Source: Opitutaceae bacterium
GTDB taxonomy: Bacteria; Verrucomicrobiota; Verrucomicrobiia; Opitutales; Opitutaceae
DNA length: 34,722 nucleotides
NCBI GenBank assembly: GCA_003164715.1
Contig: PLTZ01000069.1
Coordinates: forward strand, 1 to 34,722
Reading direction: 5' to 3'
Part shown: positions 1-20,777 of the stretch, piece by piece
Position numbering within the stretch: position 1 is the stretch's first letter
How the letters are laid out: every line of letters begins with the position of its first letter
Program-made: the position numbers and the translations under genes
The notes under the pieces: model-generated
Seen by the model: only the letters and a program-made list of their open reading frames with translations
Databases searched by the model: none
What the model was told of the DNA's origin: nothing

Positions 1-217
1 CCCCACTTCCCGATGAAGAGCCCATTTTTTGCTTTTGCACCTAATTAAGGAATAGCGGCGGAACGGCTTAAGGAGATTTTGGAATCCCAATACACCCGCC
101 GGAACGGTCGGCTTCTTCCTTCACCCGCCCCAAACTGAAATGATGCCGGCAAGCCAGGGCGCGAAATCGACGCCGTCGCGCATGCGTCCCGGCGATTAGG
201 AGCCAAATGTCCGCCAC

Positions 218-16400: not shown

Positions 16401-16806
16401 CGGCGTGTACTTCCAGCAGCCGGACGGGACCTTTGAATTCAAGCCCCTGCCCACCATGGCGCAGATCGCCCCGATCAACGGGATCCTGGTGCGCGACCTG
16501 ACGGGTGACGGCAACCTCGACGTCTACTGCGTGGGCAACAACTACGGCCCGGAACCCTCGACGGGCCGCTTCGACGGCGGGGTGAGCATCCTCCTGAAGG
16601 GCGACGGGCATGGCAGGCTGACCCCGGTGCCCACGTGGAAGAGCGGGCTCCTTGCCGCCGGGGACGCCCGCGCGGTGGCCGCCGTGGCCCTTCCCGGAGC
16701 CAAAGGCGTCCCGACCATCGCGGTTTCCCAATGCAACGGGCCGCTCCTGCTTTTCAGCCCGAACCCGAAGGCGGGGCAGGCGCAAGACAGGGTTGCGGCG
16801 CGCTAA
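13465..16806 (+). CDS. Double-length secreted FG-GAP/UnbV (CRTAC1-like) protein
   Basis: A 1113-residue secreted protein. Residues 1-21 (MTKSLFAVALAGAIALCASG) are a signal peptide. The first half holds about seven FG-GAP/calcium-loop blades (VADFDRSGMLDIFV, VVDINQDGWPDLYV, FADYDGDGYLDCFI, WFDANQDGWPDLYI, DLNNDGLIDFIV, MADLTCSGREDLFF, LVDLDGDGDLDIVY), then an ASPIC/UnbV domain at about 495-585 (IGAELRIETASGVQVRQIY ... LTIHWPNGQVQVLEDL). Where simple CRTAC1 proteins stop, this one continues with a second propeller of about six blades (VADVNGDGIADMFV, FFDATGSGHSDLFI, AADFEGTGRVGLFV, WADIDHDGRPDLVL, VADLKGDGRLDLIV, VRDLTGDGNLDVYC). The function is unknown; a surface or extracellular calcium-stabilised scaffold or binding protein is the reasonable inference. 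It is the last gene of the haloperoxidase cluster. Confidence 0.9.
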   Translation: MTKSLFAVALAGAIALCASGADYTVSPLAPRKPGPPGSKLFEILPPEQTGVTVSNVYSDPRMWGDRFRELTLGAVETGLAVADFDRSGMLDIFVVSRNGPCALYRQTAPFKFVNVAAAAGVDCTQYGQGSVTSATVVDINQDGWPDLYVCRFDAPNLLFVNNGDGTFTERAKEYGLDIKDSCVEATFADYDGDGYLDCFILTNVLDFSKSPQGRRNYLMHNNGNGTFTDVSKKAGIWGLSQGHTALWFDANQDGWPDLYIANDFETPDRFYLNNGDGTFTDVVDERLPHVTYFSMAGDSGDLNNDGLIDFIVSDMRDHTHAGYMTGLEEMGRGLWEMERVPELIPQYMWNAVYLNTGTDRYQEIAHLIGVDATGWTWATRMADLTCSGREDLFFVGGMIRDFTNPDLVDKQNVAPNLNARGAVWKNSPVRKEHTLAYRNLGDLKFENVSEKWGLDQLGVAFGCALVDLDGDGDLDIVYNNFDGPPTVIRNNSMEGHRVMIKLAGRAPNLDAIGAELRIETASGVQVRQIYTERGVVTSEPATVHFGLGSDTSISKLTIHWPNGQVQVLEDLPVDKLLTIKQPALAPGEVAHRSPARLTHPADPAALFAESAHARGVDFTDGSQPVDEFSRQRLLPRRQGMNGPAIAVADVNGDGIADMFVSGTAGQTGVLYLGQPDGTFKPSPDQPWASAKDTDDVGAVFFDATGSGHSDLFIASGGVRHDRGDPALNDRLYLNDGHGHFTLAPAGMLPDDGESTCVAAAADFEGTGRVGLFVGGRVVPGRWPAAPRSFLYRNLGGRFVDVTDELAPVLKNIGMVTGAVWADIDHDGRPDLVLATEWGPVVYFHNTGHGFENWTQKAGLAKRTGWWSAIAVADLKGDGRLDLIVGNVGLNTKYHASRDWPTVLYAGDLDGSGREQLIEAQYEDGKLYPVRGRSKLSYSFPWIPKKFPTFESYAHATVDEIFSADRLAKARRYEANELASGVYFQQPDGTFEFKPLPTMAQIAPINGILVRDLTGDGNLDVYCVGNNYGPEPSTGRFDGGVSILLKGDGHGRLTPVPTWKSGLLAAGDARAVAAVALPGAKGVPTIAVSQCNGPLLLFSPNPKAGQAQDRVAAR

Positions 16807-16906
16807 GGCTGGCGGGTGCGGCCGTCGGTCACGGCGTCGGTAACGTCATTGTGTGTCATAATGTTATTGGGATAAGGCGGTTATAAAGGCGCGCGCGAAA
16901 AGATTC

Positions 16907-16942
16907 GACAGATATTGATATGATATCATATCAATATCTGTC
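16907..16942. promoter_or_regulatory. Perfect 36-bp palindrome upstream of the SPFH gene
   Basis: The half-site GACAGATATTGATATGAT (16907-16924) is followed directly by its exact reverse complement (16925-16942), with no spacer. It ends 18 bases before the SPFH start codon, is very AT-rich in GC-rich surroundings, and contains GATAT three times on each strand. Candidate roles are an operator, most simply for the ribbon-helix-helix protein encoded at the end of the same cassette, or a long leader hairpin. No Shine-Dalgarno sequence lies between it and the start codon. Confidence 0.7.
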
Positions 16943-16960
16943 CAATCCCCTGAAACGCCT

Positions 16961-17857
16961 ATGAACACTGCTTCCCCCGCAACTCTTACCACGCACCGCG
17001 AACAACCGACTTCGGTTGGGAACGGTTGGATTCTTTTCTTCGTCATAATCGCTCTCATGGTGCTCGCCTTCTTCCTGGTCATCGACGTGCAAGGCCGATC
17101 GGATGTTTCCGTCGTTGCCGGCATCATCATCGGGATCATTTCCTTCGTGATGCTGGGAGGATTCTTCACGCTCCAGCCCAACGAGTCCGCCGTCCTGACG
17201 CTCTTCGGGGCGTACAAGGGGACCACGCGCCAGAACGGATTCCTGTGGGCCAATCCCTTTTACCGAAAGCAGAAGATCTCGCTGCGCGTGCGCAACCTGA
17301 ACGGCGAGAAGCTGAAGGTTAACGACAAGCGGGGCAACCCGGTCGAGATCGCCGTCGTCATCGTGTGGCGGATCAAGGACACCGCGCAGGCCGTGTTCGA
17401 TGTCGACAGCTACGATAACTTCATCCGCATCCAGAGCGAATCGTGCGTGCGGCATATCGCCAGCAGCTATTTCTACGACGACGGAGAGGCGGGGGAGCTG
17501 ACGCTGCGCGGGGGAGGGGCCGAAATCGCGACCGCACTCGCAAAAGAGCTCCAGGAGCGCCTCGAGCGGGCCGGCATCGGCATCGAGGAGGCCCGCCTCA
17601 CGCATCTCGCGTATTCCCCGGAGATCGCCCAGACCATGCTCCGCCGCCAGCAGGCCGAGGCGGTGATCGCCGCCCGCCAGAAGATCGTCTTCGGGGCGGT
17701 GGGCATGGTCGAGATGGCCCTGCGGGAGCTTTCGGAGAAGGGCGTCGTCAAGCTCGACGAGGAGCGCAAGGCCGCGATGGTCTCCAACCTGCTGGTCGTG
17801 CTCTGCAGCGAATCCCAGGCCCAGCCCGTGCTCAACGCGGGCACGCTCTACAGCTGA
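16961..17857 (+). CDS. SPFH/band-7 membrane protein with two N-terminal TM helices
   Basis: A 298-residue member of the stomatin/prohibitin/flotillin/HflKC (SPFH) superfamily, whose members assemble into membrane-bound rings or microdomain scaffolds. A basic/polar N-terminus is followed by membrane helices at about 23-42 and 50-69. The SPFH domain (about 70-235) starts [20 protein letters not shown] and includes [39 protein letters not shown] and [17 protein letters not shown] helical stretch rich in Ala, Glu, Arg and Gln ([20 protein letters not shown]) follows, and the C-terminus (about 238-285) is another helix typical of this subfamily. The distinctive tail [20 protein letters not shown] is shared, as I recall it, with SPFH proteins found beside small RHH proteins. 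It is first in a cassette with the PH-like protein (19 bases downstream) and the RHH protein. Confidence 0.92.
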
Positions 17858-17876
17858 CCGGCTGCGTTTCACGGCC

Positions 17877-18410
17877 ATGGCCATCATCAACCAGGTGTTT
17901 CCCTCCGCCCCGATGGGACGAAGGGTCATCGCGCCCATGATCATCGTGGCGGCGGTCCTGATTGCGGCGATCGCCTTCAACGCGCTGGTTGTCGTCAGGC
18001 ACATGCCGGGGGGGACGCCCCTGGCCGAGAGAGGCGTCGTGTCCCTAGCCCCGCTCGTGTGCCTTCTGATCACGGTGCCGATCTTCCTCTACGAGCGCTC
18101 GGTGACCTCCCAGTTCAGCATCGAGGGAAACTGCCTTGTCCTTGGGCGGAAGCGTTTTCCGCTCGAGGGCCTGGTTGAGGCCACCCGTGACCCCAAGATC
18201 CTGCGCTGGGCCGTGAAGAAGCGCGGAAATGGAGGCCTGGGATCCATCCGGGGGCGCTTCTGGAGCAAACGGGTCGGAAGCTTCTACGCCTTCCTGACGG
18301 ACACTGAGAACGCGGTCGTCCTGCGCTGGCCGGACAAGGTCGTGGCGGTGTCCCCCGCGGACCCGGATTTCTTCATCTACTCGGCCCGGTCGGCGGCAGG
18401 CCCAAAATGA
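17877..18410 (+). CDS. Two-TM protein with bacterial PH-like domain
   Basis: A 177-residue protein with membrane helices at about 17-40 and 54-72, followed by a roughly 95-residue beta-rich domain whose pattern matches the bacterial PH (bPH, PF10882-like) fold: FSIEGNCLVLGRKRFPLEGL, a basic mid-section (KILRWAVKKRGNGGLGSIRG), FYAFLTDTENAVVLRW and a closing DKVVAVSPADPDFFI strand-helix. The domain would face the cytoplasm next to the membrane. It lies between the SPFH and RHH genes with gaps of only 19 and 26 bases, so all three are likely made from one transcript. A direct partnership with the SPFH ring is inferred from this arrangement. No catalytic residues are apparent. No ribosome binding site is seen. 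Confidence 0.78.
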   Translation: MAIINQVFPSAPMGRRVIAPMIIVAAVLIAAIAFNALVVVRHMPGGTPLAERGVVSLAPLVCLLITVPIFLYERSVTSQFSIEGNCLVLGRKRFPLEGLVEATRDPKILRWAVKKRGNGGLGSIRGRFWSKRVGSFYAFLTDTENAVVLRWPDKVVAVSPADPDFFIYSARSAAGPK

Positions 18411-18436
18411 GCCCCCGCGCGAAGGGCACACCCTGA

Positions 18437-20777
<2,341 letters not shown>

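Follow-up and report, generated by a model that had tools for sequence, protein, structure and literature searches.

The window, i.e., the whole stretch of DNA analyzed here (34,722 nucleotides), includes a three-gene cassette whose products were assigned as follows:

16961–17857, plus strand: SPFH protein of 298 aa (ORF and Pfam; Band_7, E 4e-27)
17877–18410, plus strand: PH-like protein (bPH_5) of 177 aa (ORF and Pfam)
18437–18643, plus strand: Arc-like RHH (ribbon-helix-helix) protein of 68 aa with the motif KxFxLR...RSxNGQIE, the proposed ligand of the array described below (Pfam and profiles)

The gaps of 19 bp between the SPFH and bPH_5 genes and of 26 bp between the bPH_5 and RHH genes suggest co-transcription of all three; the next gene after the RHH gene codes for an NAD-dependent DNA ligase. 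The RHH protein of the window matched RHH_5 with an E value of 3.6e-4 and 20.7 bits, under the Pfam cut-off of 26. Among 43 members of its family, 32 matched RHH_5, 24 Arc, 21 ParD_like, and 10 HicB at E ≤0.01. The family profile, with the signature KKxFxLR...RSxNGQIE, has Arc of phage P22 as its nearest solved protein (E 3.3e-6 for pArc and ~0.006 for wild-type Arc). An AlphaFold model of the single chain gave a mean pLDDT of 80, a pTM of 0.44, and one long helix (14–54), a proper fold not being expected of a lone chain. No toxin partner of the RHH protein was found, its partners being Band_7 and bPH_5, and the three proteins had no PADLOC match. A type II toxin-antitoxin locus was dropped as an explanation since these neighbors are not known toxins. 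In public records, the family RHH gene at L174:3765-3962 carries the label 'PTS ascorbate transporter subunit IIC', probably a misannotation, and the one at L178:3731-3922 as 'HicB family antitoxin'. Relatives of the SPFH gene were also present in 7 of 50,697 phage records (among them MT838963.1 and PQ520051.1; 3.6–23.6 kb, unannotated), where they are likely host DNA carried in the assemblies.

The SPFH gene is preceded by a long dyad, which can be delimited in two ways:

16907–16942, no strand: perfect 36-bp palindrome with no spacer (sequence reading and dyad scan)
16902–16947, no strand: extended dyad with 23-nt arms and one mismatched pair (dyad scan)

The palindrome consists of GACAGATATTGATATGAT followed, with zero spacer, by its exact reverse complement, and the ATG at 16961 comes after a further 18 bases (16943–16960). 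According to our own arithmetic with the local AT-rich composition, the chance of 18 consecutive complementary pairs is ~1e-10 per position, and this was the sole dyad above the threshold (arm score at least 11, spacer ≤6) when the whole 34.7-kb window was scanned. The palindrome is therefore far beyond chance, as a preliminary description of this DNA had maintained. The sharp AT-rich contrast with the flanks, claimed in the same description, is seen as a GC content of 0.25 across 16900–16939 against 0.60–0.78 in windows over 16700–16859 (0.43–0.60 downstream); the stretch immediately 5' of the palindrome (16840–16919) is already down to 0.40–0.48.

Rather than a single site, the palindrome is best read as an array of three GATATC-type boxes, each palindromic or nearly so:

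16911–16916, no strand: box 1, GATATT, five of six bases as in GATATC (box scoring)
16922–16927, no strand: box 2, the central box, GATATC, with the 8-bp palindrome TGATATCA at 16921–16928 (box scoring)
16933–16938, no strand: box 3, AATATC, five of six bases as in GATATC (box scoring)

The array (16911–16938) thus has the form GATATT-N5-GATATC-N5-AATATC, with linkers written out GATATT-gatat-GATATC-atatc-AATATC, and ends 22 bp before the start of the SPFH operon. A box of 6 bp plus an AT-rich linker of 5 bp makes 11 bp, which is about one helical turn, so that the boxes should lie on the same face of the helix. An odd number of symmetric sites in a row makes a symmetric whole, which is why the copy in the window looks like one perfect palindrome. 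Of 69 arrays, 24 had A/T and 12 had G/C as the base pair flanking TGATATCA (positions 10 and 19).

Conservation was followed in 97 SPFH loci: 80 were taken from named public contigs, and the other 17, including the window, belong to a set of 57 related genomes. The related genomes had given 27 loci, and the ten with partial or weak SPFH matches (L019–L028) were excluded. L081, whose contig begins inside the gene, was left out of the upstream counts, leaving 96 loci. Reading their upstream regions for dyads revealed GATATC repeats at a fixed distance, not one conserved palindrome. In an unbiased count over −150 to +45, GATATC was the most enriched 6-mer, present in 84 of the 96 upstreams as compared with 5.8 expected from shuffles. 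An exact box accompanied by a second one (≤1 mismatch) at exactly 11 bp was found in 66 loci and in none of the shuffles, the next commonest distance within the range of 4–35 bp being 22 bp (5 loci). With two boxes 11 bp apart, matching at least 10 of 12 bases and located between −300 and +150, the counts were 91/96 upstream, 3/288 in shuffled sequences, and 1/96 downstream. The loci failing this test were L017, L049, L096, L098, and L107. L017 and L096 have a good array further out, at 1.13 and 1.05 kb upstream, respectively, with a 363-codon open frame between the array and the SPFH gene in L017; L049 and L107 have the RHH gene and a weak array. The array-bearing loci presumably span Verrucomicrobia, Bacteroidota, Pseudomonadota, Deinococcota, Actinomycetota, and Bacillota, the phyla of the named contigs being assigned on the basis of their titles.

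The claim that a regulatory site fit for the RHH protein of the cassette is kept before orthologous cassettes was thus borne out at the level of the array. The proposed check for a dyad at the same place had a mixed outcome: the array was there in 91 of 96 loci, but a strong dyad (score of at least 8.5) in only 28 of the 91 box-bearing ones, and one as long as in the window (at least 18) in two, the window and L008. The conserved property is the array and not the perfect dyad. The expectation of several adjacent contact sites also stood, with a different unit, namely GATATC-like palindromes at 11 bp and not the GATAT steps originally suggested.

Within the genus, the 28-bp array of seven other loci was on average 87% identical to that of the window (21–28 of 28 bases), whereas the 60 bp on each side were 30% and 33% identical (ungapped). 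These figures include L016, a locus of the same genus with an SPFH protein ~60% identical, which was kept out of the genus sets for the symmetry and promoter alignments; without it, the values were 89% for the array and 31% and 34% for the flanks. Perfect palindromes often mark mobile elements, which would speak for a mobile or replicative palindrome (a REP/MITE-like remnant or a plasmid-type iteron) playing no role in the operon. The probability of this is very small, given the preservation of the array between diverged flanks, its fixed position before one operon across phyla, and its single copy in the genome, where the 28-bp core occurs once in 3.79 Mb even with three mismatches permitted.

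In the related genomes, a three-box array (≤3 mismatches) was located beside the cassette in 16 of the 18 with a close SPFH protein; the exceptions were G007, near a contig end, and G025, with 4 mismatches. With ≤2 mismatches, all 57 genomes contained 15 three-box sites, of which 12 were at the cassette and one at the contig end of G007; the other two were in G050, with no cassette protein beside it, and at G007:C224. When 3 mismatches were allowed, a three-box site was also present in 16 genomes that lack the cassette, and a reversed control pattern matched in 6, so at that laxity the pattern is not specific by itself. The strict pattern TGATATCA-N3-TGATATCA was tried on 288 genomes of the phylum and rejected: it matched in one, at a locus (L124) without the three cassette proteins, and is too strict in this phylum because usually only the central box is perfect.

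The array is linked to the RHH gene, which was found in 93 of the 97 SPFH loci. Among the four without it, L008 and L036 end 1 and 301 nt past the SPFH match, the L017 genome has an RHH gene, interrupted by one TAG, at a distance of another 1.65 kb, and L098 has neither an RHH gene within 3 kb nor an array. An RHH copy with an internal TAG was noted at L131 (G052:C38:927-1073), in a genome whose array lies 1.1 kb upstream of the SPFH gene. Of the 57 relatives, 18 encode a close SPFH protein (E <1e-30) and 19 the RHH protein, with four more having weak SPFH hits only; in the 19th RHH genome (G003), the PH-like and RHH genes are on a piece where the cassette was apparently cut by the contig end.

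The linkage was tested again in plasmids, none of which had been used for pattern discovery (28 records with an SPFH match, 17 of them read). The array was present in 8/8 loci with a clear RHH gene (E <1e-20) and in 0/7 without one, the best score there being 8. Two loci with a divergent RHH gene, L182 from Bosea and L184 from Rhizobium (E 3e-15 and 6e-15), scored 9 and 8, with a single GATATC close to the start. The contrast is partly confounded by ancestry, since five of the seven RHH-less SPFH genes are only 30–33% identical to the query. By SPFH identity, the fairest RHH-less comparisons are the Deinococcus loci L175 and L179 (49% and 55%), to be set beside three Bacteroidota with the RHH gene at ~50% identity, and L098 (56%). 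A lone family RHH gene on a Thermus thermophilus plasmid (L183:2977-3168), with no listed SPFH gene, had no array within 6.1 kb (best score 9), which counts against the model developed below.

Long AT-rich palindromes serve as operators in many families, and this counts in favor of a different host-encoded regulator, for example of the Fur, GntR, or MarR type, controlling the operon. Such a regulator is quite improbable in view of the same box and period recurring across phyla, the RHH gene standing beside the SPFH gene in nearly all loci, and the co-occurrence of the array with a clear RHH gene in the plasmid test. Moreover, the three-box array (≤3 mismatches) is single in the genome of the window and, in this respect, unlike the sites of a global regulator. 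A Fur box, in particular, was discarded, as the repeat unit of Fur boxes is 6 bp long and the array has a period of 11 bp. The string TGATATCA is present in one Fur paper (PMC4628125).

Searching the genome of the window for two-box sites with ≤1 mismatch returned only the array itself. With two mismatches, there were 36 further places; the reversed pattern, which is a weak control since its base words differ, had 9, and these counts gave no clear sign of a wider regulon in the genome.

Taken together, the array, its position, and its company make it highly probable that the palindrome serves the SPFH-bPH-RHH operon as its operator, at which the operon's own RHH protein would dock and repress its own synthesis. 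The Arc, CopG, and AmrZ complexes have 5 bases between half-sites, with the minor groove narrowed, and omega 4 (PMC3325190); the match of this 5-base spacing to the linkers of the array was the reason for choosing the RHH protein as the ligand. Half-sites repeated on one helix face at a period of ~11 bp, as they appear here, are what an Arc/CopG-type operator should display, and the RHH gene belongs to the same operon, in keeping with autoregulation. The Arc-like RHH protein would occupy each GATATC-type box as one dimer, with its beta-ribbon in the major groove, and contacts between neighboring dimers would make the binding cooperative. The array sits where the spacer and the −10 element of a promoter are expected, and bound RHH protein could thereby shut out RNA polymerase, so that the operon would repress itself until free RHH falls.

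The candidate promoter elements were located through the array alignment:

16904–16909, plus strand: TTCGAC, a weak counterpart of the TTGAC of relatives and a possible degenerate −35 element (array alignment)
16924–16929, plus strand: TATCAT, overlapping the end of the central box, a possible −10 element by inferred role (array alignment)

At the TATCAT site (array bases 14–19), 71 of 85 aligned arrays had TATCAT (38), TATCAC (20), or TATCAA (13). Within the 85 arrays and the 45 bp preceding them, there were 31 occurrences of TTGAC and one of its reverse complement; 18 of the 31 start 7, 9, or 10 bp before box 1. For the 13 at −9 or −10, the spacer to TATCAT is 16–17 bp, and the central box may therefore act as the −10 element. 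In the genus of the window, the −35-like element lies at −7, which leaves 14 bp to TATCAT instead of 16–17, and in the window itself it reads TTCGAC. The median distance from the array to the assigned start was 13 bp in the 85 arrays. A search of 16780–18760 found no consensus sigma-70 promoter, and with the −7 element degraded as well, occlusion of the promoter by bound RHH protein is what we infer for the window. About 50 bp before the array, CATAAT at 16857–16862 could be a second promoter element; its TAA is invariant in the window and six upstreams of the same genus (L003–L008). On the minus strand (16942–16907), the dyad followed by GAATCTTTTC scores as terminator-like, probably as a by-product of the palindrome.

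The symmetry could also act in RNA, as a hairpin in the leader whose stem would affect how well the SPFH message is translated or how stable it is. The RNA of 16900–16980 indeed folds into a stem of 16 bp with 4 more pairs outside it (−25.8 kcal/mol, z −8.3), close to the size given in the preliminary description, which had it cover the ribosome landing area. However, pairing stops at 16947, and with the last 13 nt ahead of the AUG free, the stem itself would not bury the Shine-Dalgarno position. Moreover, a promoter at the array, as indicated by the −35-like TTGAC just upstream of it in some relatives, would start transcription within the array. An Rfam search of 16780–17100 at E ≤1 returned three microRNA-type hairpins with 17.7–29.7 bits as compared with gathering scores of 90–100; a known structured RNA leader or riboswitch was therefore dropped, there being no match above the gathering score.

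Paired changes gave a divided picture. The window and L008 share the 28-bp core, and two paired changes distinguish their outer arms without breaking the symmetry. The flanks (10 bp outside) of 64 arrays had a self-complementarity of 0.356 in register 0 and 0.211–0.317 when slid, and those of seven genus loci 0.543 and 0.143–0.371, respectively, whereas outside the genus the excess was slight (0.333 against at most 0.318). When the flanks were compared with dealt partners, none of 2,000 shuffles reached the observed pairing, and outside the genus 3 did, in a test inflated by shared base composition. The excess was weaker for the linkers (reached by 3/2,000 shuffles, or 51/2,000 outside the genus), and the outer boxes paired no better than dealt partners (209/2,000 and 751/2,000). 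Pairing over the whole array was reached by 1 of 1,000 shuffles with all 50 arrays, relatives included, but by 197 of 1,000 with the 36 from named contigs. The symmetry of the flanks, mainly in the genus, goes beyond what three boxes require; symmetric protein contacts or a hairpin could each cause it, and quasi-palindrome correction during replication could also give such symmetry. With a strong dyad in so few of the box-bearing loci, we regard control by an RNA hairpin as improbable, and the earlier suggestion of translational control was not supported, given the lack of paired outer-box changes beyond chance, the free 13 nt, and the TTGAC upstream in some relatives.

The preferred reading, an operator bound by the RHH protein of the operon, places the locus among known systems. 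The Arc operator consists of two half-sites. The array differs from it in having up to three full-palindrome GATATC boxes and would regulate an SPFH operon, while the 5-base linker is common to both (PMC3325190). AmrZ of Pseudomonas is an Arc-like RHH protein repressing its own gene at amrZ1, where a 5-bp AT-rich linker separates the half-sites, and replacing the linker with GC lowered the binding 7.5-fold; it is a protein of 108 aa with a C-terminal domain and both activates and represses several genes (PMC3325190). The window's RHH protein has 68 aa and a three-box site that is single in its genome. RHH antitoxins of the CopG, omega, FitA, and ParD types repress their own operon through a palindromic operator over the promoter, and omega uses 7-bp repeats as opposed to the 11-bp period found here (PMC4803016). 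Like them, the RHH protein is encoded in the operon that it would repress; unlike theirs, its partner genes code for SPFH and PH-like proteins, which are not known toxins.

Conserved operons around SPFH genes are known, with NfeD as the partner in the SPFH1, SPFH2, and SPFH5 operons (PMC2636767); here, the partner is an RHH regulator plus, in the window, a PH-like protein. Bacterial SPFH proteins are presented with NfeD partners, with FtsH, or with no conserved context in the sections concerned of PMC2636767 and PMC13086221. The words 'repressor' and 'DNA-binding' have zero occurrences in the main text of the former, an SPFH survey, and are absent from that of the latter, on SPFH in P. aeruginosa; PMC8656257, which also has the term SPFH, mentions ribbon-helix-helix once, in the reference list. 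Autoregulation by an operon-encoded RHH protein is thus of a known kind, whereas a link of SPFH to an RHH regulator and an operator made of a GATATC array did not turn up in direct queries of the open-licence PMC literature.

A wider proposal is that of an old cross-phylum module, in which the Arc-like RHH protein and the GATATC array travel with one SPFH lineage and a membrane partner (SPFH or PH-like) controls the RHH protein by sequestering it under membrane stress. We put it forward as a rather doubtful speculation; if the sequestration were true, a membrane scaffold would sense its own need and set its own supply. With the linked RHH gene and the shared operator, this SPFH lineage would have both a defined promoter and a repressor at hand. 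Deletion of the RHH gene or mutation of a single box should turn the operon on and reveal when the cells need it, and the loci provide RHH operators with two and with three boxes as a naturally occurring series. The only exact TGATATCA-N3-TGATATCA in the 288 genomes (L124:1501-1519) is at the start of an opposite-strand ORF, which by eye resembles another RHH antitoxin, presumably of the FitA/VapB type, a hint that the same sites may serve further RHH proteins.
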